DNA of 64,000 nucleotides, from positions 1 to 64,000 of the forward strand of contig NZ_BOMH01000036.1 in the NCBI RefSeq assembly GCF_016862095.1. The letters are read 5' to 3'. Position numbers and translations under genes: made by a program. This document shows, piece by piece, positions 4,104-28,599 of the stretch. Position 1 is the stretch's first letter; the number at the start of each line of letters is the position of its first letter. Origin of the DNA: Actinoplanes cyaneus. GTDB taxonomy: Bacteria; Actinomycetota; Actinomycetes; Mycobacteriales; Micromonosporaceae. The notes beneath the pieces are model-generated. The model searched no databases, had not been told where the DNA came from, and was given only the letters and a program-made list of their open reading frames with translations.

Positions 4104-6617
4104 CTAGTCCTGTTCGTCAGGCTCGTCGGCATTGCGAGCAAGCGCCACGATGGTTACACCTTCAGGGAGGTCCATCAGCTTGACCCCCATTGTGTTCCGA
4201 TCCCGTGTGCGCCGTACAGGCTTCACGGGAGTCCGGATGACACCACCATTGCTGGTGATGGCAAACAGTTCATCCTCCGGGCTGATCACCAGAGCGCCGA
4301 CAAGTCCACCACGTCGTTCGGTGATCTTCGCGGTGAGCACCCCCTTGCCGCCACGCCCCTGCACCGGATACTCCTCGATCGGCGTTCGCTTCGCATACCC
4401 ACCGTTGGTGGCGACCAACACATCCATGTCGTCGCGCACCACTTCCATGGCGAGAAGCTCGTCGTTGTCGCCGAAGCGCATGCCGATCACACCCGAGGTC
4501 GCGCGCCCCATCGGCCGCAGCGCCTCGTCGGTCGCGTTGAACCGGATGGCCTGGGCGTGCTTGGACACGAGCAGGAGGTCGTCCTCCGGTGCCACCAGAG
4601 CCGCGCCCACCAATTCGTCATCCTCCCGCAGGTTGATGGCGATAATGCCACCGCTGCGGTTGGAGTCAAATTCGTCGAGGCGGGTCTTCTTCACGAGACC
4701 ATTCTTAGTGGCGAGCACAAGGTAGGGCGCGACCTGGTAATTCGGGATCTGGATGACCTGGGCGATCTGCTCGTCCGGCTGGAACGCCAGCAGGTTCGCG
4801 ACGTGCTGACCCTTGGCCGTCCGGTTCGCTTCGGGAAGTTCGTAGGCTTTCGCCCGATATACCCGGCCTTTGTTCGTGAAGAACAGCATCCAGTCGTGGG
4901 TCGAGATCACATAGAAGTGCGAGACGATGTCGTCCTGTCGCAGGGTAGCGCCGCTCACACCCTTGCCGCCGCGCCGCTGGGATCGATACATGTCGACCTT
5001 GGTGCGCTTCGCATAACCAGTTCGTGTGATGGTCACCACAACGTCCTCGCGCGCGATGAGGTCCTCCATGGAGACCTCGCCGTCGAACGGGATGATCTGG
5101 GTGCGCCGGTCGTCCCCGAACTTCTGCACGATCTCGCCGAGTTCGTCGGAGATGATCGCCCGCTGCCGCTCCGGCTTCGCCAAGATGTCCTTGAAGTCGG
5201 CGATCTCGAGCTCGATCTTCACCAGCTCGTCGATGATCCGCTGCCGCTCCAGGGCGGCCAGGCGGCGCAGCTGCATGTCGAGGATCGCGGTGGCCTGGAT
5301 CTCGTCGACGTCGAGCAGGGTCATCAGGCCCTGGCGGGAGTCCTCCACCGTGGGCGAGCGCCGGATCAGGGCGATGACCTCGTCGAGCATGTCCAGCGCC
5401 TTGCCCAGACCGCGCAGGATGTGCGCGCGCTCCTCGGCCTTGCGCAGGCGGTACGCCGTACGCCGGCGGATGACCTCGATCTGGTGGTCGACGTAGTAGC
5501 GGATGAACTGCGCCAGATTCAGCGTCCGCGGCACGCCGTCGACCAGCGCCAGCATGTTGGCGCCGAAGGTCTCCTGCAGCTGGGTGTGCTTGTAGAGGTT
5601 GTTCAGCACCACCTTGGCGACCGCGTCGCGCTTGAGGACCAGGATCAGCCGCATGCCGGTACGCCCGGACGACTCGTCCCGGATGTCGGCGATGCCGGTG
5701 AGCTTGCCCTCCTTGACCAGCTCGGCGACCCGCTCGGCGAGGTTGTCCGGGTTCACCTGGTACGGCAGCTCGGTCACCACGAGACACGGCCGGCCGCGCT
5801 GGTCCTCCTCGACCTCGACGACCGCGCGCATCCGGATCGAGCCACGCCCGGTCCGGTACGCGTCCTGGATCGCCTGCTGGCCCACGATCAGGCCGTAGGT
5901 CGGGAAGTCGGGACCCTTGACGATCTCGAGGAGCGCCTCGAGCATCGTCGCCTCGTCGGCCTCGATGTTGTCCAGGCACCACTGGACCGCGGCCGCGATC
6001 TCCCGCAGGTTGTGCGGCGGGATCTTGGTGGCCATGCCGACCGCGATGCCCTCGGACCCGTTGACGAGCAGGTTCGGGAAGCGGGCCGGCAGGATCGTCG
6101 GCTCCTTCGTACGCCCGTCGTAGTTGTCCTGCATGTCGACGGTGTCCTCGTCGATGTCCCGCAGCATCTCCATCGCCAGCGGGGACAGTTTCGACTCGGT
6201 GTAACGCATGGCGGCCGGCGGGTCGTTGCCCGGCGAGCCGAAGTTGCCGTTGCCGTCGATCAGCGGGTACCGCAGCGACCACGGCTGGCCCATCCGGACC
6301 AGGGCGTCGTAGATGGACGAGTCGCCGTGCGGGTGGTAGTTGCCCATCACGTCGCCGACGACGCGCGCGCACTTGACGTAGCCACGGTCGGGGCGGAAGC
6401 CGGCGTCGTACATCGCATAGAGGATCTTGCGGTGCACCGGCTTCAGGCCGTCGCGGACGTCCGGCAGCGCGCGGCCCACGATGACGCTCATCGCGTAGTC
6501 GAGATACGAGCGCTGCATCTCGACCTCGAGACCCACCGGCTCGACGCGCTGGGTCACACCGCCGCCGGTCTCCTCCGGGGAAGCGTCGCCGTCAGGGGGT
6601 TCGGGAATGTCAGTCAC
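4104..6617 (-). CDS. gyrA: DNA gyrase subunit A
   Basis: An 837-residue GyrA, the breakage-reunion subunit of the A2B2 enzyme that introduces negative supercoils. The catalytic tyrosine is Y139 in the AMRYTES motif. The quinolone-resistance region reads [15 protein letters not shown], with serine at the position equivalent to E. coli Ser83 and aspartate at that of Asp87, so no resistance substitution is visible there. The C-terminal pinwheel domain contains the GyrA box QRRGGKG. The GTG start follows a short leader. It is 124 bases downstream of gyrB, with a DnaA-box-like site in the gap, and is followed at 3 bases by the DUF3566 gene. Confidence 0.98.
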
Positions 6618-13260: not shown

Positions 13261-14394
13261 TCAGCGCGTTACCCGGATCGGCATGATCAGATAGCGGTAT
13301 CCCGGGATGATTTCGCCACTTTCGCCAGCGGGCGAGATCACAGCGGGCTTGAACGCGTCGACGAACGAGAACACCGCCGTCGGCGCGCCGAGGTTCTGCA
13401 GGCCGTCGATCAGGTACTGCGGGTTGAAGCCGATCGTCAGCGCCTCACCGGTGAACGCCGCCTCCATCGCCTCGCTGGCGCGCGCCTCCTCGGTGGTGCC
13501 GGCCTCGACGACCAGACCGTCCTCGCTGAAGCTGAGCAGCACCGGGGTGGTGCGCTCGGCGACCAGCGCGACCCGGCGGACGACCTCCACCAGGGCGGAG
13601 ACGCTGATCCGGGCCTCGGCGTTGTGCGAGGCGGGGAAGAGCGAGCGCACCGGCGGGTAGTTCGCCCCGTCGAGCAGGCGGCTGGTCGTGCGCTTCTGTC
13701 CACCGGCGAAACCGATCATGCCCTCGCCGGCGTTGCCCTGTGCCAGTGCCAGGGTGGCCGAGCCACCGCCCGGGCCGAGCGCCTTGGCCGTGTCGTTCAG
13801 CGTCTTCGCCGGGACCAGCGCGTTGAGGCTGATCTCCGGGTCGTCCGGGTTCCACTCGATCTCCCGCATGGCCAGCCGGTAGCGGTCGGTGGCCAGCATC
13901 GCCATGGTCGTGCCGTTCAGCTCGATGCGCACACCGGTCATCATCGGCAGCGTCTCGTCCCGGCCGGCCGCGATGGCCACCTGGGAAACCGCTGAGGCGA
14001 ACGTAGCGGCGTCGACGGTCCCCGCGCTGGACGGCATGTCCGGCAGGGTCGGATAGTCCTCCACCGGCATCGTGGGCAGGGTGAAACGCGCACTGCCGCA
14101 GACCAGCTCGAGGTGAGCGCCGACAGCGGCGATGTCGACAGGCTTGCCGGGCAGCGCCTTGGTGATCTCGGCGAGCAGGCGGCCGGAGACCAGCGCGGCG
14201 CCGTCCGCATCCGCCTGGACCTCGACGGAGACCTGGCTGGAGACCTCGTAGTCGAACCCGGAGACCTGCAGGCGGCCGTCGGTCACTCGCAGCAGGACAC
14301 CGGCGAGCACCGGCACTGACGGCCGGCTCGGCAGGCTCTTGGCCGTCCAGGCGACGGCCTCGGCGAGCGAGTCTCGCTCCACCCGGAACTTCAT
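13261..14394 (-). CDS. dnaN: DNA polymerase III subunit beta (sliding clamp)
   Basis: A 377-residue beta clamp, which encircles DNA and tethers polymerase III. It begins MKFRVERDSLAEAVAW and ends with the conserved RYLIMPIR strand. The ATG at 14394 has GGAGGAC five bases upstream, which decides the start. The three repeated clamp domains fit the usual length. It is the first gene after oriC on this side and heads the dnaN-gnd-recF series. Confidence 0.98.
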   Translation of the reverse strand: MKFRVERDSLAEAVAWTAKSLPSRPSVPVLAGVLLRVTDGRLQVSGFDYEVSSQVSVEVQADADGAALVSGRLLAEITKALPGKPVDIAAVGAHLELVCGSARFTLPTMPVEDYPTLPDMPSSAGTVDAATFASAVSQVAIAAGRDETLPMMTGVRIELNGTTMAMLATDRYRLAMREIEWNPDDPEISLNALVPAKTLNDTAKALGPGGGSATLALAQGNAGEGMIGFAGGQKRTTSRLLDGANYPPVRSLFPASHNAEARISVSALVEVVRRVALVAERTTPVLLSFSEDGLVVEAGTTEEARASEAMEAAFTGEALTIGFNPQYLIDGLQNLGAPTAVFSFVDAFKPAVISPAGESGEIIPGYRYLIMPIRVTR

Positions 14395-16062
14395 GCTGTC
14401 CTCCGCGATGCTTCCTCTACGGGGCGTGGAGCCCACTGAAACTCTATGGCGCTGACCGTGTTGACGTGTGCCCGACCCCGGGTGCGGCAGGCAGGACCCG
14501 CCGAGCCTGACGGCACGGACCTACCTTGCCTTGCTTCGCCGGAGAAGCGAAATGCCGCCACTCCACGGTGCTGACGCCGTCCGGCTGAATGTGGGCCCTC
14601 AGGCGTTGTGGCGGGAGCGGCGGCTACGACCTCTGCTGGAGTGCGGTGCTGGAGCTCGGTGCGAGTGTGCGGTGCCAGCCGGGCGGGTTCCACCGCGGCG
14701 GGGCAGCGACGCTCACGGGTGCTAACTCTCCATCGACCCGGAAGGGCGCGTCTACACCTTCTCGGTGCTCTCTTCGGGGATCCGATCGGCGACAGGGTGA
14801 TGCGCGGGATCGTTCGCGCCTCGGAGGCTGACACCCGGCTCTTGATGAAGTCGCTCCGGCGCACTGCCCGAGCGCGACGGTGACAGGGCAGACCGAGGCA
14901 CCTGGCTCCTTGGTGCTGGCTCTTCCCGACCTGTGCCCTCCACGGCCCGGAGGCAGGCCGACCAGCCTTTCCACACGCTGATGATTTCTTTTTATCTATT
15001 AGAGAGATAACTAGTCGTCTTCATCGGTCCTGTGCATTCTGTGGAGAACCCGCGTTTCCGCTGGTGAGAGGGTTATCCACCGGTGATTCACATGTGGGTA
15101 ACCGGGGTACAACCATGCCTACTTGTCCACACCCGGGGTTCGCCAACAGGGTTATCCACCGTTGTACACAGGCTATCCACCGGTTATCCACCGGGTTTGT
15201 CCCCCGACCTGTGGACGACGCCGAGACGCCGGCGTCACGTTGTCCCCAGAACCTTCAACAGGCTATCCACACTCGTCCACAGGCAGCTGACTAGCAGCTA
15301 ACTCTCCGTGTCTGTCCACATCGATTTCCCCAGGAGTTGTCCACATCTGTGGTTAACGACCTAAAAGTTATCCACCGTCTGGGGACGAAGCCTGTGGATG
15401 CCTGTGGACGAGTGTGGACAACGTTGGCACGAAACTGACCCGTTCCGACGTTGACAAGTTCGCTCCGACCGCACAAGAAAGTTCACATGGAAGAATGTCA
15501 ATCTCTCCAGGTCAGAGCCAAATCTGGGGATAAATCTGTGGGTAACGCGGTGAAAGCCGTGGATAAACGTGTGGACAGCCGTGTTGTCCCAGCTCAGAGC
15601 TGTTGTCAGGTGCCTGTGGGAAACGCTGCTTTCTCGGCGGGGCGTCGTCGCTGTGCAAAACCCGGATTTCCCGTACGCCACCGGTTGTCCACACCCGGCG
15701 CCGGCGTCGCACATCCGCGTCCCGGGGACCGTCCCGACCGCTGGTGATCAGTGGAGCGGAGAGCGTGCCGATCTGTCAGTTCAGCCCGGCGAGGCACCAG
15801 CGGCCGGAGTGGGGCGCCGCGATCCTCGACTCGACGACGTGCCCTCGACGAGTGCCGAGGCGCGCGGACGGCCACCCGGACGGCGACGAGCGCCGAGACG
15901 CGTGTGGACGACGACGCGGACGACGCGTGATCTGGTCGGCAGTGTCGTCGGAGGCGGTGCGATAGCGATGGACGGCCCGCGGACGACGAAGCGCTGCCGG
16001 CTGTAGGAGCTCGGCAGCGCTCGGGGACGGTGCTGCGGGACGGTGCTGACGCCGTACCGAAA
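14395..16062. other. oriC: Chromosomal replication origin region (oriC) between dnaA and dnaN
   Basis: A 1,668-base gene-free interval between dnaA and dnaN. At least 20 DnaA-box-like 9-mers cluster between 15073 and 15693 in both orientations. Perfect TTGTCCACA-type boxes are at 15123-15131, 15337-15345, 15413-15421 (reverse) and 15685-15693. Close variants are at 15073, 15093 (reverse), 15152, 15173, 15184, 15210 (reverse), 15263, 15273, 15312, 15348 (reverse), 15368, 15393 (reverse), 15403 (reverse), 15525 (reverse), 15537 (reverse), 15558 (reverse) and 15570 (reverse). Forward boxes predominate on the dnaN side and reverse boxes on the dnaA side. Genes on both sides are transcribed away from it. 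The segments 14395-14970 and 15700-16062 show no further recognisable element. Confidence 0.95.
14980..15014. other. AT-rich candidate DNA unwinding element in oriC
   Basis: The stretch around ATGATTTCTTTTTATCTATT and the following AGAGAGATAACTAGT is the longest AT-rich run in the window, in otherwise ~70% GC DNA. It sits about 60 bases from the first DnaA box, on the dnaN side. In bacterial origins the unwinding element is such an AT-rich segment beside a box array, so it is the best candidate for strand opening. Confidence 0.7.
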
Positions 16063-17919
16063 TCAGGTGTTCTGTTTGATCCTGTTGGTGAGCTCGGCGA
16101 TCTGGTTGTAGAGGGACCGGCGCTCGGCCATGTGCTGCCGGATCTTGCGGTCCGCGTGCATGACGGTGGTGTGGTCGCGGCCGCCGAATGCCTGACCGAT
16201 CCGGGGAAGCGACAGGTCGGTGAGCTCGCGGCAGAGGTACATGGCGACCTGTCGCGCGTTGACCAGCACCCGGCTGCGGGAGTGCCCGCGCAGGTCCTCC
16301 AGGGAGACGCCGAAGTAGTCAGCGGTGGAGACCATGATCTGGTCCGCGGTGATCTCCGGGCCGGCGCCGTCGGGCATGAAGTCGCGCAGGACCTCCTCGG
16401 CGAGCGAGAGCTGCACCGGGGAGCGGGTCAGGCTGGCGAACGCGGTCACCCGGATGAGGGCGCCCTCGAGTTCGCGGATCGAGTTGGAGACCCGGGAGGC
16501 GATGAACTCCAGCACGTCGTCGGGCGCGTACATCCGCTCCTGGGCGGCCTTCTTCTGCAGGATCGCGATGCGCGTCTCGAGGTCGGGCGGCTGGATGTCG
16601 GCGAGCAGGCCCCACTCGAAGCGGGTGCGCATCCGGTCCTCCAGCGTGGCGAGCTGGCGCGGCGAGCGGTCGGAGCTGATGACGATCTGCTTGTTCGCGT
16701 TGTGGAGGGTGTTGAAGGTGTGGAAGAACTCCTCCTGCGTCCGCTCGCGGTTCTCCAGGAACTGGATGTCGTCGATCAGCAGGATGTCGACGTCGCGGTA
16801 ACGGCGCTGGAACGCCTGCGTCTTGTCGTCGCGCAGGCTGTTGATGAAGTCGTTCGTGAACTCCTCGGTCGAGACGTAGCGCACCGAGCGCGCGTGCCCG
16901 AGGGTGGTCGCGTAATGACCGATGGCGTGCAGGAGGTGCGTCTTGCCCAGCCCGGAGCTGCCGTAGATGAACAGCGGGTTGTACGCCTTCGCCGGTGACT
17001 CGGCCACCGCGACCGACGCGGCATGCGCGAACCGGTTGGACGAGCCGATGACGAACGTCTCGAACATGTACTTCGGGTTGAGCCGGTTCCCGTCCTGGCC
17101 GCCGGGACGCGGGGACGCGCCGGGGCCGCGCAGGTCGGCCTGTGGACGGCCGGGGCCGTTGTCGCCGCGCATCGGCATCGTGTCGTCGCGGCGGTCGTCG
17201 AGCTGGCGCTGGTTCTCCCGCAGATGTGCCGGGTCGGCGGGCATCCGCAGCGCGGCCGCCTCGTTCGGCGCCGGGGGCATCTCGCGCTCGGGGCCCTTCT
17301 CCGGCGCGCGTGCCGGGGCGGGCCGGTTGACCTGCGGCGCGGCCGGCATCGGGTCGGCGAAGAGCGCCTCCTGGCCGTCGCGGGCGGAGGCGGCGTTACG
17401 CCCGTAGGGCCCGGCCGGCGCGGAGTGCTGCGCGGAACCCGTCGGGTACGGCTCGGGCGCGCGGTCCGCCGGCCCGAAGGCCTGCTGCTGGTACGCCGAT
17501 TGCTCCGGCGGATAGGCCGGAAGCTCGGGCTGGAACGGCCGGGGATCCGGGTTGCGCGGCGCGTCGGCGTAGTGCATCGGCTGCGCGTCGCGGGGCGGCG
17601 GCTCGGACTCGGCCTCCACCGGGGTGCCGTAGACAGTGCCGGGCATGCCGGTCCCGTCCTCCGGTGGGCGGACCGTGACGGCGACCTGGATCGGCCGGTT
17701 CAGCCGCCGGGTGAGGGCCTCGGTGATCGCCGGCCGCAGCCGCAGCTCGATCACGTCCCGGGTGTACGCGTCCGGAACCGACAGCAGCGCGGTGTCCTCG
17801 ACGATGGCCCGGAGACGGGTGAACCGGAGGTAGGCACGCTGCTGCCGGGAAGCGATCTCCTCGGACAATTCGCTGAGTGTGTCCTGCCACAGCATGCCCA
17901 GGTCGACCTGATCGGCCAC
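16063..17919 (-). CDS. dnaA: Chromosomal replication initiator DnaA
   Basis: A 618-residue DnaA, the AAA+ initiator that binds the oriC boxes and melts DNA. Domain I (about residues 1-90) begins [17 protein letters not shown]. Domain II is a long Pro/Ala/Arg-rich linker (about 95-280) usual in actinobacteria. Domain III has Walker A GSSGLGKT at about 320 and Walker [11 protein letters not shown] at about 378. Domain IV ends with the box-binding signature [15 protein letters not shown] near 579. The GTG start at 17919 is chosen by homology; the frame is open further upstream without matching DnaA. Two DnaA boxes 140-160 bases upstream suggest autoregulation. Confidence 0.98.
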
Positions 17920-18060
17920 CGCCGCGCCACCCCCATCGCCACCGACCCCCGGTGGACCTTGTGTCCGGCCTTCCCTGTGCCTGTCGGCGCCCGTGCAGGC
18001 GACCGATCGGCTCCCCCAACCCAGCACAGTCAACGCGCTGAACACGCACGGCGCCACCGG

Positions 18061-18080
18061 CTATCCACAGGTTATCCACA
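18061..18080. promoter_or_regulatory. Paired DnaA boxes upstream of dnaA
   Basis: CTATCCACA at 18061-18069 and a perfect TTATCCACA at 18072-18080 are spaced by two bases. They lie 142 bases upstream of the dnaA start and about 420 bases upstream of rpmH. Boxes in the dnaA promoter region usually give autorepression, so this pair is the likely autoregulatory site. I could not place a convincing -35/-10 pair for dnaA itself. Confidence 0.75.
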
Positions 18081-22420: not shown

Positions 22421-24391
22421 ATGGGCCGGCGGGGTGCGAGGAAGCGGACTGCGCGCAATGCGCGCCCTAACCCATCAAAGGCTTCGGATGTACGTCCGGA
22501 GCGGTCCCGTGCCCAGGAAAGCCCCAGGGTCGACCATCCCTGGCCGGGGCGCCCGGTAAGCGGCTCCGATCCGTCCCGCGCTGACGCGGTCGAGCACTCG
22601 CCGACTGCCAATCCTCGTGTGACCCCGATCGGTGCCGATGAGGTGGCGGATCGCCCGCCGGTGCCCGAGGTGCCGACGCCCGGCCGGGACTTCCAGCCGG
22701 CCGTTCACCGCTCGGCGGAAAGCGATGTTTCACGGGAAACAATGGCTCCCGGTACGGCGGTGGACCACGACAAGGAAGCTTGCGGTGGCACGCAGTCAGC
22801 CGTGGTTCCGGGCGCCGCTGAGTCGTTTCGTGGTGCGCGGGAGGAGCGGGGGCGTGTGCTGGACGGGACCTCCCCGGGTGTCATGGGGAGCAGCGATGGC
22901 CGTACGGGAAGTCATCCTTCTGATGGAGACCGTGAGCAACGGGACCGCCTCGAGCCGCCCGTGACCGCGAGCTATGGCGGTGATTTGAGGCTTGTGTCGG
23001 GCGTGATGATGTTTGTCGACGCGCCTGTGGACAACAATGCGACGTTGCGCTCGACTCATCCTGTGCACGAACATAGCGACGTTCGCCCGGCGGCCGTAGG
23101 CTGGCCAAGCGTCGATAGTGTGGACCGGATCTCTCCCGCCGGAATACACGATTCGCCGGCCGACCCGTTCCTAGCCAACAGGGATAAAGCGGTGCATGAG
23201 TACGGTGTTTCACGTGAAACCGAGTCGCCTCTCGACCGGTCGTCGGGAGTGAACGCGGGTGGGCTGCACGCCGGTGAGCAGGGCGTTCCTCAGCCACGTC
23301 CCGGCGGCTACCAACCGACTGCCTCCGGCTCCACTTATGGGTATGGCGTGCCCACGCCCGGTCAGCCGGACGATTTCCGTGGGCGCGCGCCATCGCCACG
23401 TTCGGGCGTGCCGGCAGTCGGGCAGGTTTCCGCTGCCCCGGCGTCCACCACGATCCCCACTTCAGGTGCCTCTGTTCAGCCCGGCGAGCATGTTTCACGT
23501 GAAACGCCGGGCGGGGTTGAGGACGATCCACCCCTGGCCATGGAAGCGTTGCGAGCTGTGCAGATCCTCAACCCGAGCGGCGAGATCATCATGCCGCGCC
23601 CGGACCACCCACGGGTGATTTGCGTTGCCAATCAGAAGGGCGGCGTCGGCAAGACGACCACCACGGTGAACCTGGCGGTGGCGCTCGCGCTTCACGGCAA
23701 CCGGGTGCTCGTGGTCGACCTGGACCCGCAGGGCAACGCGTCTACCGGTCTCAACGTGCCGCATCACGCCGGTGTGCCGGACGTCTACGACTGCCTCATC
23801 GACAATGTGCCGCTGGCAGAGGTGGCCCAGGGCGTTGAGGGAATCCCGAACCTGTTCTGCGTGCCGGCCACCATCGACCTGGCCGGTGCCGAGATCGAAT
23901 TGGTGTCGGTGGTGGCTCGTGAGTCCCGCCTGGCCCGCGCGATCGCCGGGCACCCCGAGAAGTTCGACTACGTCTTCATCGACTGCCCGCCGTCGCTGGG
24001 CCTGCTGACGGTCAACGCGCTCTGCGCGGCGCAGGAAGTGCTGATCCCGATCCAGTGTGAGTACTACGCGCTGGAAGGCCTGAACCAGCTGATCAACAAC
24101 ATCAACCTGGTACGCCAGCACCTCAACCCGACCCTGGATGTCTCCACCATCCTGTTGACCATGTACGACCGGCGTACCCGCCTGGCCGACGCGGTCGAGC
24201 AGGACGTCCGGAACCACTTCGGAGCGAAGGTTCTGAACGCGGTCATTCCCCGGAACGTGCGCGTGTCGGAGGCTCCGAGCTACGGCCAGTCGGTGATGAC
24301 CTACGATCCGGGATCAAGGGGCGCGACGAGCTACTTCGAAGCGGCTCTCGAGATCGCGATGCGCGGGGTCAACACGGGAGGCACGGCATGA
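22421..24391 (+). CDS. parA: Chromosome partitioning ATPase ParA with ~395-residue N-terminal extension
   Basis: A 656-residue protein. The C-terminal ~260 residues are a complete ParA/Soj ATPase: deviant Walker [17 protein letters not shown] near residue 405, [12 protein letters not shown], and Walker [13 protein letters not shown]. ParA cycles on the nucleoid with ATP and moves ParB-parS complexes. The first ~395 residues are disordered, Pro/Ser/Asp-rich, and contain three copies of VSRET, each encoded by a parS site (22726, 23206, 23491). The ATG at 22421 has a good GGAGGGG seven bases upstream and directly follows the rsmG stop, which supports the long start. A shorter protein from an internal ATG (for example the one at 23540) would also have a full ATPase. 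It overlaps parB by four bases. Confidence 0.93.
22726..22741. promoter_or_regulatory. parS: parS site 1 (inside parA, one mismatch)
   Basis: TGTTTCACGGGAAACA matches the parS consensus TGTTTCACGTGAAACA except for one central base. It lies in the parA frame and encodes VSRET. One changed base may weaken ParB binding. Confidence 0.75.
23206..23221. promoter_or_regulatory. parS: parS site 2 (inside parA)
   Basis: A perfect 14-base parS core GTTTCACGTGAAAC with T-G at the left flank (15 of 16 bases match). It is in frame with site 1 and again encodes VSRET. Confidence 0.9.
23491..23506. promoter_or_regulatory. parS: parS site 3 (inside parA)
   Basis: A perfect 14-base core, 15 of 16 bases of the full site, in the same frame of parA, encoding VSRET just before the ATPase domain begins. 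Confidence 0.9.
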
Positions 24392-25458
24392 AGAATCGTC
24401 CGCGGGGAGGCCTGGGCCGAGGCCTGGGTGCACTGATCCCCACGGCGCCCGCCGCTGAGCCGGCCGAGAACGGTTCGGAGATCGCCCCGGTGTCGGCCGT
24501 TCCGAGTGCGGCTGTCGCCGTCGCACCTGACGGCCTGCCCTCCCCCTCGGCCGCTCCGCTCAGCCCCGCACCCGCGCCTGCTCCGGCGCCCGTGCCCGCC
24601 CTCGAGAACGAACTCGCGCCCGTGCCGGGCGCCCGATTCGCCGAGCTGCCCGTCGGGTCCATCGAGCCGAACGCGAAGCAGCCGCGGCACGTCTTCGACG
24701 AGGAAGCCCTCGAAGAACTCAAGATCTCGATCCAGGAGATCGGCTTCCTGCAGCCGATCGTGGTGCGCGAACTCGGCGACGGTCGCTACGAACTCGTCAT
24801 GGGCGAACGCCGCTGGCGTGCCGCCCAGGCGGTGGGCAAGGAGACCATCCCGGCGATCGTGCGGGACACTCCCGACGACGCCATGCTGCGGGACGCGCTG
24901 CTGGAGAACATCCACCGGGCGAACCTGAACCCGCTCGAAGAGGCGGCCGCCTACTCGCAGCTGCTCGAAGAGTTCGGGGTCTCGCACGAGGAGCTGGCTC
25001 GGCGGATCGGCCGGAGCCGGCCGCAGATCTCCAACACCATCCGGCTGATGAACCTGCCGGCGCCGGTGCAGCGGCGGGTCGCGGCGGGAATCCTCTCGGC
25101 GGGGCACGCTCGGGCGTTGCTCGGGCTCGCCGGCGCGGAAGCTCAGGAAGACCTCGCCAAGAAGATCGTTGCGGAAGGTCTGTCGGTCCGGGCGACCGAG
25201 GAGATCGTGAAGCTGGCCGAGCTGGACGGGCGAGCGGCGAAGAAGGCGGCGCCGGCTCGGCGGGCCAAGGTGCACGCGCCGGCTTTGAACGATCTCGCCG
25301 ATCGGCTGTCCGACCGGTTCGACACCCGGGTGAAGGTCGACATCGGCCGGAACAAAGGCAAGATCACGATCGAGTTCGCGACCGTGGATGATCTCGAGCG
25401 GATAGTGGGCATGATCGGGGTCGAGGAGGAAGGGGCTCGCACCGGCACTGAGGAGTGA
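24388..25458 (+). CDS. parB: Chromosome partitioning protein ParB (CTP-dependent parS-binding clamp)
   Basis: A 356-residue ParB. The N-terminal [18 protein letters not shown] is the conserved ParA-interaction segment. A Pro/Ala-rich linker (about 20-80) leads to the ParB/Srx CTPase domain with GERRWRAAQ near residue 140 and [14 protein letters not shown], then the parS-reading helix-turn-helix ([19 protein letters not shown]). The C-terminal dimerisation domain ends [12 protein letters not shown]. ParB loads at parS, spreads as a CTP-bound clamp, and recruits condensin and ParA. Overlap with parA is four bases; a strong terminator follows at 25476. Confidence 0.98.
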
Positions 25459-25750: not shown

Positions 25751-26383
25751 ATGCGACTCGACTCCGGTGTGACCGCCATGATCCGTTCGATGGCCGCGGA
25801 CCTCGGTCTGCCCGTGGTTACCTACTACGGTCTGCACGCCCTCGGCGCCGACGACACGACCGCCCTGCTCGCCGGGACGCTGGCAGCCGGCGCCCGTCTG
25901 GTGTGGGTCGCCGTGCGGAGCCGGACCGTCAGTTACTTCTCGATGGTCATGGGTGCAGTCTTCGGGGTCGGTCTCCTCTTCACTCTGCTGACCGGGGACG
26001 CGCGTTTCCTTCTGATCAAGCATTCGATGATGGCCGCGGTGATCGGGGCGCTGTTCCTCGTCACGGGCCTTCGCGGAGGCAAGCCGTTGACACTCTCCGC
26101 GCAACAGAGCTTCACGCCGGCGAAGGCAGCGGAGATCGCGGCCGAATACGCGAACAGCCCCGAGGTGCGGCGGGGGCATCGGATCGCTTCCGTGGTGTGG
26201 GGTGGCGGGCTGCTGACCGAGGCCGTGGTCCGCGTCGTTCTGGTCTACCTGCTGCCGGTGGACGTCATGGTGGGCCTCTCCACGCTGCTGACCGTTGTCA
26301 CGCTCACTCTGTTGATCGGGTGGAATGCCCGCTACATCGCGACGCGCAAACGAGCTGCGGTCGGTGAGTTAGTCAACGCCTGA
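25751..26383 (+). CDS. VC0807-like integral membrane protein
   Basis: A 210-residue membrane protein with five or six hydrophobic helices, an early PVVTYYGLHALG segment and a central LLTGDARFLLIKHSMMAAVIGALFL block that resembles VC0807 family proteins (distant relatives of intracellular septation protein A). The function of the family is unknown. The ATG at 25751 has GAAGGAGAA eight bases upstream; a GTG lies just before it at 25748. It has its own upstream interval of about 240 bases after the parB terminator and is followed by the gene-free parS region. Confidence 0.75.
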   Translation: MRLDSGVTAMIRSMAADLGLPVVTYYGLHALGADDTTALLAGTLAAGARLVWVAVRSRTVSYFSMVMGAVFGVGLLFTLLTGDARFLLIKHSMMAAVIGALFLVTGLRGGKPLTLSAQQSFTPAKAAEIAAEYANSPEVRRGHRIASVVWGGGLLTEAVVRVVLVYLLPVDVMVGLSTLLTVVTLTLLIGWNARYIATRKRAAVGELVNA

Positions 26384-26387
26384 CTCC

Positions 26388-26515
26388 GGTGCCGCGGATC
26401 CGGTAGGCGCTTCTTCCTCAAGAGCGATGCTGGGGATCTGGTAGGCCGGTCCTTCCCCGAGAGCGGTGCCGCGGATCCGGTAGGCCGGTCCTCGCCCGAG
26501 AGCGGTGCTGCGGGA
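26388..26515. repeat. 39-base imperfect tandem repeat (about 3.3 copies)
   Basis: Units start at 26422, 26461 and 26500, with a partial, diverged unit before them. The shared part reads GGTAGGCCGGTCCT with GAGCGGTGC ahead. Units differ by several bases. No protein frame is conserved convincingly, and no known protein site is recognised. Confidence 0.75.
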
Positions 26516-26648
26516 TTGAGTCGGCTGGCCATTACGTGATACCGGTGCCGGGGATCCGGTCGTGGCCGTCGCCTGGCGGTGCTGCAGAGACCAAGCCAGT
26601 GGCAGGGGTGGCGCATCAGCTCGGATGAGCTGGTGCGCCACCCCTGCG

Positions 26649-26664
26649 CGTTTCACGTGAAACG
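26649..26664. promoter_or_regulatory. parS: parS site 4
   Basis: A perfect 14-base core GTTTCACGTGAAAC in the gene-free region, with C and G flanks instead of T and A (14 of 16 bases match). Confidence 0.85.
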
Positions 26665-26837
26665 TTGCGGCGGTGTGCCGATCTGCGATGCAGCGGCCGC
26701 GTCGGGGCATGCCCCGAGGATCGCGAGGCCGCAGTCCACACTCAGCGGTCCGGCGACTCGTCAGCGCAGTGGCCGAATCCGGCGGTGGTCCGTAGCCGCC
26801 GTTTTGATTAACCGTGAGCTATTCGAGCTTCCTGCGC

Positions 26838-26853
26838 CGTTTCACGTGAAACG
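26838..26853. promoter_or_regulatory. parS: parS site 5
   Basis: A perfect 14-base core in the gene-free region, flanked by C and G. It is 189 bases from site 4 and adjacent to the 25-base tandem repeat. Confidence 0.85.
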
Positions 26854-26880
26854 GCCGGTCGTTGGCTGGCCGGCCCCACC

Positions 26881-26977
26881 GGTCGCAATGGGCTGCGCCC
26901 CACCCGGTAGCAATGGGCTGCGCCCCACCCGGTAGCAATGGGCTGCGCCCGACCCGGTCGCAGTGGGCTGCGCCCGG
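26881..26977. repeat. 25-base tandem repeat, four copies
   Basis: Four copies of a unit containing GCAATGGGCTGCGCCC start at 26881, 26906, 26931 and 26956. Copies two and three are nearly identical; the fourth is incomplete at its end. It lies between parS sites 5 and 6. Period and near-identity suggest recent slippage. There are no spacers, so it is not a CRISPR. Confidence 0.85.
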
Positions 26978-27110
26978 CTGAAGCGGCCAGCCGCACCGTT
27001 AGCACCGACTGCCACGCAACCCTGCGAGGTGATAGCGGCCGATGCGATTCATGGGCACCGACCACTATCCACAGCCTGTGGGTTTTGCTGTGCCGAGATG
27101 GAGTGCGACC

Positions 27111-27126
27111 CGTTTCACGTGAAACG
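27111..27126. promoter_or_regulatory. parS: parS site 6
   Basis: A perfect 14-base parS core flanked by C and G, located between two DnaA-box-like sequences. Confidence 0.85.
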
Positions 27127-27188
27127 ACGTTGATGGACTGGGAGTTGTCCACTGCGCTATCCACAGGGCCACCAAGCGTTCTACGTCG

Positions 27189-27204
27189 AGTTTCACGTGA
27201 AACT
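27189..27204. promoter_or_regulatory. parS: parS site 7
   Basis: A perfect 14-base parS core flanked by A and T, nine bases before a perfect reverse DnaA box at 27213. Confidence 0.85.
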
Positions 27205-27405
27205 GGTGGGGCTGTGGATAACTTCTGTGGATAACTTTGGGGCGCATGTGTGGAGAAACACGCGCTCATGCCGGTCGACGTTTGCCCCTCTCTGGGCGTC
27301 CGCTAGATCAGCTCGAGGCCTCCACGGGGCGCCTTCGACACCGTCCCCCCGAACGTGCGAAATTGGCCCGGGACAGCCCGTCCTGACCTGGGCTAAGGTC
27401 ACGTC

Positions 27406-28599
27406 GTGTCTGAGAACACCGCCCCTCTGCCCGACTTCACCCGCTGGCCGTCGTTTCCGTTCGAGGGCGACATGCGGGTCAAGAAACTTGCCCCGCCCGT
27501 GGAGGTCGAGCCGCCACGGAGCGGCGAGGACGGGTCAGAATGCGTGGCTTGCGGGACGCCCGACGACGCGTACATCTGGGTCTCGGAACGCTGGCGAGTC
27601 AGGGCGATGGACCGTCCCACGGGACTCCCGATGGTGCTGATCCTGGAGTGCCGGTCGCACCTCGATCTGGGAGATCTGCCCAACCTGCTGGCCGCCGAGC
27701 TCGGGGTGATGACGGTCCGGCTCGAGCGCGCGATCCGATCGCTCGACGATGTGGCACGCGTCCACGTGAATCGCTGGGGCGACGGCTCCGCGCACCTGCA
27801 CATGTGGTTCCTGGCGCGGCCGTACGGGCGGTTGCAGCTGCGCGGCACGTTCCTCTCGCTGTGGGACGACATCCTGCCGGTCATCCCCGAACAGAAGTGG
27901 CGGGAGAATCTGTCGCTCGTCGCCGCGTGGCTCGCCGACTTCGGCGGCCGGGCGATCGCGGAACCGGCCCACATCGAGTGGGAATCACCGGCGACCCTGA
28001 ACGTGCCGGGCACCGACCCGGAGGACGATCGCGAGGAAGCCACTCGTCCCGCAACGCTGGACGATGTCCGGGCGAGCGCCGCGCCGGCCGATCCGTGGGT
28101 GCGGCACAACGACGATCCGTCGGCAGGCAGTCCTCCGCCGAGTGGCCCTCTCGCGGACACGTCGACTGCGGTCCCGCCCAAGAGATCGTCGCTGTATGAG
28201 TTCACCGAAGGGGTGTGGGCGACCGCAGCGAATCCGACCGCCCCTCGGGATCCCGCAGTGGAGGAAACCACCGCCGGCGCCACCGATCGGGGCGAGGCGG
28301 CTTGGGAAGGCCCCGGCAGCGATGCCTGGCCCCCGTCGGCGGGAGGCACCGCGACGGGAACGCCGCCGGAACCATCGACTGCCGGGGTGCCGGGCCCGAG
28401 CGGCGACGAAGCCCACGGCAGCCCGGCCAGAGACGGCTACGTCGCCACCGGCGCGCCCAGTACCGGCGCGCCCAGCACCGGCGCATCCAGGACGAGCGCG
28501 CCCAGCACCGGCGCGCCCAGCACGAGCGCTGCCAACTCCGGCGTCCTCAGCACGGGCGCTGCCGGCACCGCTGCCGGAGCGGGCGACCACGAGTCGTAA
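27406..28599 (+). CDS. HIT-like domain protein with long disordered tail
   Basis: A 397-residue protein. Residues about 40-190 look like a histidine-triad-superfamily fold: a CVAC pair near residue 46, then GDGSAHLHMWFLARP near 126, with the H-x-H arrangement of the family's active site but not the full H-x-H-x-H triad. Such proteins bind or hydrolyse nucleotides. The C-terminal ~190 residues are Pro/Ala/Thr/Ser-rich and end in degenerate five-residue repeats of the GAPST type. The GTG at 27406 is the start. It follows the parS/DnaA region and precedes parS site 8, but there is no evidence of a segregation role. Confidence 0.7.
   Translation: MSENTAPLPDFTRWPSFPFEGDMRVKKLAPPVEVEPPRSGEDGSECVACGTPDDAYIWVSERWRVRAMDRPTGLPMVLILECRSHLDLGDLPNLLAAELGVMTVRLERAIRSLDDVARVHVNRWGDGSAHLHMWFLARPYGRLQLRGTFLSLWDDILPVIPEQKWRENLSLVAAWLADFGGRAIAEPAHIEWESPATLNVPGTDPEDDREEATRPATLDDVRASAAPADPWVRHNDDPSAGSPPPSGPLADTSTAVPPKRSSLYEFTEGVWATAANPTAPRDPAVEETTAGATDRGEAAWEGPGSDAWPPSAGGTATGTPPEPSTAGVPGPSGDEAHGSPARDGYVATGAPSTGAPSTGASRTSAPSTGAPSTSAANSGVLSTGAAGTAAGAGDHES

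Follow-up and report, generated by a model that had tools for sequence, protein, structure and literature searches.

The origin region of the Actinoplanes cyaneus chromosome carries DnaA boxes and parS sites side by side in a stretch between two genes. Are these two kinds of sites neighbors by accident, or do they form one element, and what would such an element do? We analyzed a window of 64,000 nucleotides, which is the origin region of this 10.36 Mb genome. Pfam matches in the window identify dnaA (16063-18057, minus strand), dnaN (13261-14436, minus strand), gidB, parA (22421-24391, plus strand, with the ATPase domain starting from residue 398), and parB (24388-25458, plus strand), which encodes a canonical ParB. 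The C-terminus of the window DnaA contains the DHTTV signature. The oriC box field (15040-15693) is located between dnaA and dnaN and contains four copies of TTGTCCACA and zero copies of TTATCCACA. Directly upstream of dnaA, a CTATCCACA and a perfect TTATCCACA are found 11 bp apart (18061-18080), which fits autoregulation, as expected. There are eight GTTTCACGTGAAAC parS cores in the 64 kb, versus 0.08 expected from shuffles, and 31 boxes with at most one mismatch to TTATCCACA, versus 1.74 expected. The parS copies lie close to parAB, as in an ordinary parS cluster. The parA frame has ~397 residues in front of the ATPase domain (22421-23611), and three parS sites are located inside this part, at 22726 (with one mismatch), 23206, and 23491.

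The original prediction described four parS cores alternating with five DnaA-box-like sequences, two of them perfect, over 600 bp of a gene-free region about 11.7 kb from oriC. The region is indeed intergenic, lying between the end of a VC0807-family gene at 26383 and the start of the next gene at 27406, and its clustered parS sites and boxes are 11.4-12.2 kb away from the oriC boxes. Small open reading frames cross this stretch and are without conservation support, because the flanks hold only ~0.1 bit per column. The four parS cores (16-mers starting at 26649, 26838, 27111, and 27189) and the five box-like sequences are present beyond chance, and two boxes (27213 and 27226, both minus strand) are perfect copies of TTATCCACA, with the other three (27065 and 27157, plus strand, and 27249, minus strand) at no more than one mismatch. 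The alternation over the whole 600 bp does not hold. All boxes are confined to 27065-27257 together with the last two parS sites, and in the scan the parS sites at 26649-26664 and 26838-26853 stand alone, with no DnaA boxes nearby. Between the preceding gene and the clustered sites there are also tandem repeats, one with a 25-bp unit (4.2 copies, 26873-26975) and one with a 39/79-bp unit (26386-26560).

The sites in the right part of the region form a 170-bp module (27065-27234), whose limits in its Actinoplanes form are set by near-constant spacing in the window and 22 loci of the genus (alignment A1). The order of the module is a DnaA box, a parS, a weak box, a DnaA box, a parS, and two inverted DnaA boxes. 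Box 1 is a CTATCCACA on the plus strand (27065-27073), in which TATCCACA is invariant in 23/23 aligned sequences. It is followed by parS 1 (CGTTTCACGTGAAACG, 27111-27126), with a 14-base core invariant in the 23 sequences, and by the weak box TTGTCCACT (27145-27153, plus strand), which is partly conserved and lies 12 bp before box 2. Box 2, found by both box scan and alignment, is another CTATCCACA (27157-27165, plus strand). The second parS (AGTTTCACGTGAAACT, 27189-27204) is exact in 21 of the 23 aligned sequences and has one mismatch in the other two. Boxes 3 (27213-27221) and 4 (27226-27234), supported by scan and alignment, are perfect TTATCCACA on the minus strand, 13 bp from each other. 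The part from box 2 to box 4 (27157-27234) is the core that is found family-wide, in the form box(+) N24 parS N8-10 box(-) N4 box(-). In other words, parS 2 is the center of a frame of two convergent DnaA boxes spaced 56/57 bp from each other, and a further box lies 13 bp beyond one of the two. The fifth box-like sequence, TTCTCCACA (27249-27257, minus strand), is unconserved in the 23 aligned genus sequences and probably lies outside the module.

Two other identities were considered for the module and rejected. A second origin would be expected neither from its composition nor from its place: an AT-rich unwinding element is absent (GC content 57-75% in 100-base steps from 26300 to 27499), and the module is outside the dnaA-dnaN neighborhood that holds the canonical oriC at 15.0-15.7 kb. 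A structured RNA was also sought, and Rfam gave only sub-threshold matches of microRNA type at the module.

The arrangement is kept in relatives. We collected 58 loci around parB, picked by ParB alone, of which 35 belong to the genus and 23 to other families of the order. We found the core in 22/35 genus loci; as for the other 13, 12 have contig ends ~5 kb or less from parB, and in one (L046) the core lies ~1 kb past the fetched stretch. The 22 loci and the window share the order box(+), parS, box(+), parS, box(-), box(-), with successive spacings of 46-49, 44-45, 33, 23, and 13 bases. All spacings are identical in 15/23 sequences, and the rest are within 1-2 bases. The invariant or nearly invariant columns of the alignment of the 23 sequences are mainly the two parS sites and the four boxes. 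From parB to parS 2 there are 1.7 kb in the window, compared with 2.5-8.3 kb in the 22 loci. When genus genomes were searched for the exact core (a parS followed by two inverted boxes), it was found in 64/67, as a single copy in each, and two of the three genomes missed by the exact pattern have a parS with one mismatch.

Other parS sites in the 35 genus loci have a box within 70 bp in 5/211 cases and none in 206/211, a count that is not circular; the corresponding 44/44 for parS sites of the module is circular, as these were located via the box pattern. In an ordinary parS cluster, the parS sites have no fixed neighbors, and at this site they do have them. The order of boxes and parS sites in the proposed joint DnaA/ParB region is conserved in relatives, as the original prediction would have it, except for its fifth box. 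The spacing is near-fixed in the genus, and the arrangement is recognizable across much of the family, one lineage having the core inverted.

The pattern of a parS followed by two inverted boxes is present in 173/354 genomes of the Micromonosporaceae, from 8 of 44 genera, and a reversed-pattern control gave 0. In a collection of named genomes, 114 stretches match. Among the matches listed (80 of 114) are Actinoplanes and its segregates, Micromonospora, Verrucosispora, Salinispora, Dactylosporangium, Catenuloplanes, and a few close genera, and the exceptions among them are a Treponema bin (L162) and an uncultured bacterium (L120). These two and L210 are without family context and were excluded from family counts. 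Across 142 family stretches, a set in which some genomes appear twice, the paired boxes are invariably separated by 4 bp, and 8 (5 stretches), 9 (88), or 10 bp (49) lie between them and parS. In this set, pattern selection inflates the information values at parS and boxes 3-4, and those at box 2 and the gaps less so. The family alignment (A2) contains 36 of the 95 non-redundant cores listed for the set.

A sample that is independent of the motif gave a similar picture. It consists of up to 4 kb upstream of the next gene in 60 loci from 41 genera other than Actinoplanes, drawn from 117 genomes matching that gene (L261 and L299 cover ~1 kb only). In these related, not independent, loci, 156/200 DnaA boxes are located no more than 100 bp from a parS, compared with 38.7 expected for an even distribution. 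A box is found within 100 bp of a parS in 45/60 loci, and in 27/41 genera at least two boxes lie that close to one parS. The core is not universal, as 14/41 genera have no parS with two boxes within 100 bp; one of these 14 is represented by a 1.1-kb stretch, and two others show the frame by a looser count. The geometry is sharp: of 105 convergent box pairs within 160 bp, 66 are at 56, 57, 69, or 70 bp, and 12 or 13 bp separate 46/109 same-strand pairs. The 23 divergent pairs show no peak, with at most two per distance. Boxes facing outward within 30 bp of a parS were seen in only 7/122 family genomes, from three genera.

To place the element in history, we used a ParA+ParB tree with 55 of 73 rows, including 9 of the 22 core-bearing genus loci and 3 of the 23 other-family loci. 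All placed carriers fall in one 41-row clade with support of 100/99. The sole boxless member of this clade is g42, and the boxless genera g26, g37, g38, g44, g50, g58, g63, and g65 are outside it. We note that several end branches of the tree are long and that the three other-family rows sit among family rows. The 18 rows left out have an incomplete parA or parB, and they include the boxless g25, g33, and g53 and the carriers g27, g30, g31, g32, g39, g52, g59, g60, and g62.

The orientation of the core relative to the next gene differs between lineages. Among the matches listed, it is uniform in 28/28 scored loci of Actinoplanes, Paractinoplanes, and Amorphoplanes, and one locus in each of three close genera has this orientation too. 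The scored loci among the matches listed have the opposite orientation in 37/37 Micromonospora/Verrucosispora cases, 4 in Dactylosporangium, 3 in Salinispora, and 1 in Catenuloplanes. There are 33 further oriented loci whose names are not among the matches listed, and 5/114 stretches are without the next gene (L120, L162, L210, L136, and L137, the last two from Micromonospora). Because of this split across genera, the Actinoplanes orientation is probably derived; the element was kept through the inversion.

Outside the family, no such cluster was found right of parB in the 23 other-family loci, of which L086 (3 bases) and L068 (1.7 kb) reach little past parB. One of them, L057, has a convergent box pair at a spacing of 56 bp and lacks a nearby parS. 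A parS followed by an inward box within 30 bp was found in 1/293 non-family genomes of a class sample (G575, upstream of parA) and in 1/244 of an order sample (G680, next to parB); the family members of these samples have it in 3/3 and 44/54 genomes, respectively.

Some arrangements elsewhere resemble the module in part. In ten large genomes, probably Streptomyces (L328-L337), nine have a looser DnaA-box pair and one has a single box. The boxes of this pair are 18 bp apart and are located upstream of the match to the ParA ATPase domain, ~100-200 bp from parS, between or beside parS sites and ~2.15 kb before the end of the parB match. The Treponema case (Treponema sp. isolate Horse_feces307 MAG, L162, ~4767-5433) contains 12 parS-like sites, none with more than one mismatch, that are interleaved with 8 DnaA boxes over ~670 bp between gyrA and a gene with a tRNA-editing domain. 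This cluster is an independent look-alike. Because Streptomyces-like, Treponema, and rare other cases exist outside the family, putative initiator sites at centromeres probably arose more than once.

What would the element do? We consider it reasonably probable that the module is an origin-proximal cis element bound by both DnaA and ParB, which would couple initiation to segregation in the way reported for DnaA boxes at the Caulobacter parS. For this dual-binding reading, DnaA acting on ParB and segregation is a tentative proposal, held at clearly less than even chances, and ParB acting on DnaA is somewhat doubtful. In the mechanism we have in mind, DnaA would occupy the boxes that point toward parS from both sides, 24 bp away on one and 8-10 bp on the other. 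A ParB that loads at the central parS and slides away would have to pass bound DnaA, and a DnaA assembly spanning the 56/57-bp frame would need to leave room for ParB. In the likeliest direction, DnaA occupancy would gate the loading or escape of ParB at one site, and the other parS sites of the region would remain unregulated. We prefer this direction on account of the inward orientation of the boxes and their restriction to this site (5/211 at other parS sites). A more complete version is a composite centromere, in which one parS per chromosome is gated by convergent DnaA and ParB in turn gates DnaA assembly. Such a site would read the replication state and switch segregation, would work in either orientation, and would have a single origin in the Micromonosporaceae, with unrelated look-alikes elsewhere, the Treponema cluster among them. 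We offer this fuller version as a speculative possibility.

The rival that survives best is a DnaA titration or inactivation locus of the D78 (Streptomyces coelicolor) or datA (Escherichia coli) kind, in which early-replicated boxes would sequester or reset DnaA once initiation has occurred, and ParB would only bend or occlude the site or be a bystander. We judge it unlikely as the explanation; nevertheless, it has to be taken seriously, as the frame is able to persist when no parS is enclosed. Among 35 convergent frames, parS occupies the middle of 26; in 8 it lies outside the frame, 20-131 bp from the first box, and one frame (L300) has none near. An enclosed parS is not strictly needed for the frame, and in several genera the DnaA frame has outlived the loss of this parS. 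A remnant of a lost central parS was considered for eight parS-less frames and rejected, as it beat shuffles in three of them (L271 and, from a single genus, L290 and L291). Plain titration would be served by these same sites: they include several putative strong-consensus boxes outside oriC, presumably replicated early at 11-12 kb from it, in a single-copy locus kept in both orientations, and the two TTATCCACA of the module are a word absent from the oriC field. However, titration alone needs no parS, and yet 156 of the 200 boxes in the motif-independent sample are close to one, with an inward orientation and a spacing that are sharp. Judged by the consensus TT(A/G)TCCACA, the module boxes are also no better than those of oriC with its four TTGTCCACA, and four to five more boxes would be a small sink in a genome with 221 matches to YTRTCCACA.

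A regulatory region for the next gene, where DnaA and ParB would set its transcription in the cell cycle, is an improbable alternative. This gene (27406-28599, plus strand, with a provisional 3' end) encodes a conserved orphan protein with ~200 conserved N-terminal residues. We call it hit, a label taken from its histidine-triad-like look and not a result; the protein has no Pfam or NCBIfam match and no convincing PDB match. The gene was matched in 117/121 family genomes. The module mostly lies 100-277 bp from it, which a regulatory role would also account for, and the median distance of the parS from the gene is similar for both orientations of the core, 183 bp in one (47 loci) and 175 bp in the other (62 loci). 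On the other hand, transcription of the gene seems to start from a separate leaderless promoter, as judged from a -10-like element, TAAGGT (27394-27399, plus strand), 12 bp before its GTG. Such an element is found 12 or 13 bp before the start in 47/60 family loci, compared with a mean of 0.06 in shuffles of the upstream 100 bases, and it is also present in the window and in 21/21 genus loci that have the gene in the stretch. The inversion of the module in one lineage is likewise hard to fit with a regulatory region, as are distances of 609 bp (L035) and 1348 bp (L033). Because the next gene is kept in lineages without boxes, and because the parS is 854 and 867 bp from the gene start in two genera, the module is not simply its promoter.

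It is very improbable that the TTATCCACA-like sequences are sites of some protein other than DnaA. The binding of DnaA to the boxes is predicted from sequence, and paired TTGTCCACA also occur in an interspersed element of this genome; against this, the sequences equal the classical DnaA box, close variants fill oriC, and the window DnaA has the DHTTV signature in its C-terminus. Near the origin, parS and DnaA boxes are both enriched in general; that the two site types are unrelated and came to be crowded together there by chance, or as a neutral relic, is hardly credible in view of the near-fixed geometry over many genera with flanks at ~0.1 bit per column, the boxes at only 5/211 other parS sites, and the reversed-pattern control of 0.

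The interspersed element deserves a description in its own right. Same-strand pairs of TTGTCCACA, TTATCCACA, or CTGTCCACA, 17 bp apart, recur in the genome (among loci L308-L322), at contig positions C2:151836, C3:26199, C14:62751, C14:211874, C17:99372, C21:16521, C24:99081, C31:90125, C33:57558, and C33:165172. These loci share, in varying degree, a tail of GATCTT, AATGG, and a C-run followed by a GGGAGGGTGGG-like sequence. They have no obvious common downstream protein, and six of them gave one sub-threshold Rfam match. The paired-TTGTCCACA loci are an interspersed non-coding element. Elsewhere in the genome, three perfect TTATCCACA are found within 62 bp at C31:36952-37013 (L325), next to three adjacent open frames without a Pfam match. 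A perfect parS is located at C57:13733-13746, 51 bases from the contig end, and a parS with a single mismatch at C36:87233-87246, 60 kb right of the module, inside an open frame of the radical-SAM molybdenum-cofactor type.

Several known systems are similar to the module in part. The parS region of Caulobacter crescentus is reportedly bound by DnaA (Mera et al. 2014). Like the module, with its predicted binding, Caulobacter has DnaA boxes at parS near the origin, and its initiator acts at the centromere. The module differs in its repeated, near-rigid geometry, with a convergent pair 56/57 bp apart around parS, and in its place, being in an actinobacterial family, at one of several parS sites, 11-12 kb from oriC. 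In Escherichia coli, DnaA boxes of datA and DARS flank the site of a second DNA-binding protein outside oriC, which is IHF or Fis where the module has ParB. The IHF site lies between the boxes in datA, and datA and DARS act by hydrolysis or exchange of the nucleotide of DnaA-ATP. Streptomyces coelicolor, also a mycelial actinobacterium, has DnaA boxes outside oriC, in clusters named D78, H24, and H69, for which a titration result was reportedly obtained (Smulczyk-Krawczyszyn et al. 2006); we know of no parS inside any of these clusters.

The kind of element is known from published work. In the excerpted text of PMC6399470, Caulobacter parS is bound by DnaA and DnaA-ATP is needed for partitioning, and RctB binds the rctA/parS2 locus of Vibrio cholerae chromosome II. 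The original prediction held that a joined binding region had not been described, which is wrong in general, as these two loci precede the module (PMC6399470, in excerpt). At rctA/parS2, as in the module, centromere (ParB2) and initiator (RctB) sites adjoin, and the Vibrio sites influence replication; the difference is that RctB is not DnaA, the chromosome is a secondary one, and the sites are different. In the secondary replicons of Deinococcus radiodurans, repeats upstream of parAB have ori and parS-like functions, according to an excerpt of PMC7671480. These replicons resemble the module in having replication and segregation functions on one DNA stretch and differ from it in that they carry arrays of direct repeats on secondary replicons (same excerpt). 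For actinobacteria, a 2013 review discusses crosstalk between DnaA, ParB, and ParA by analogy with Bacillus (PMC4255298, in excerpt), and the excerpts of PMC3411110, PMC4285127, PMC4210621, PMC7022226, and PMC6275241 contain nothing on such an element. No actinobacterial composite of fixed geometry appears among the matches listed, which are titles and abstract starts with subscription journals mostly outside. The kind is known from Caulobacter and Vibrio, and as far as titles and abstract starts show, the actinobacterial form with fixed geometry appears to be new.

How initiation is tied to segregation in bacteria is an open question, above all in mycelial actinobacteria with multiple genomes. 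The boxes and parS sites kept in a near-fixed pattern suggest that such a link may exist at this site. The module is a compact, single-copy, non-coding element with near-exact geometry, and it comes with natural orientation variants and losses of parS, so that it is testable by small edits. It offers a site for asking whether DnaA would be a roadblock or a license for ParB clamps.
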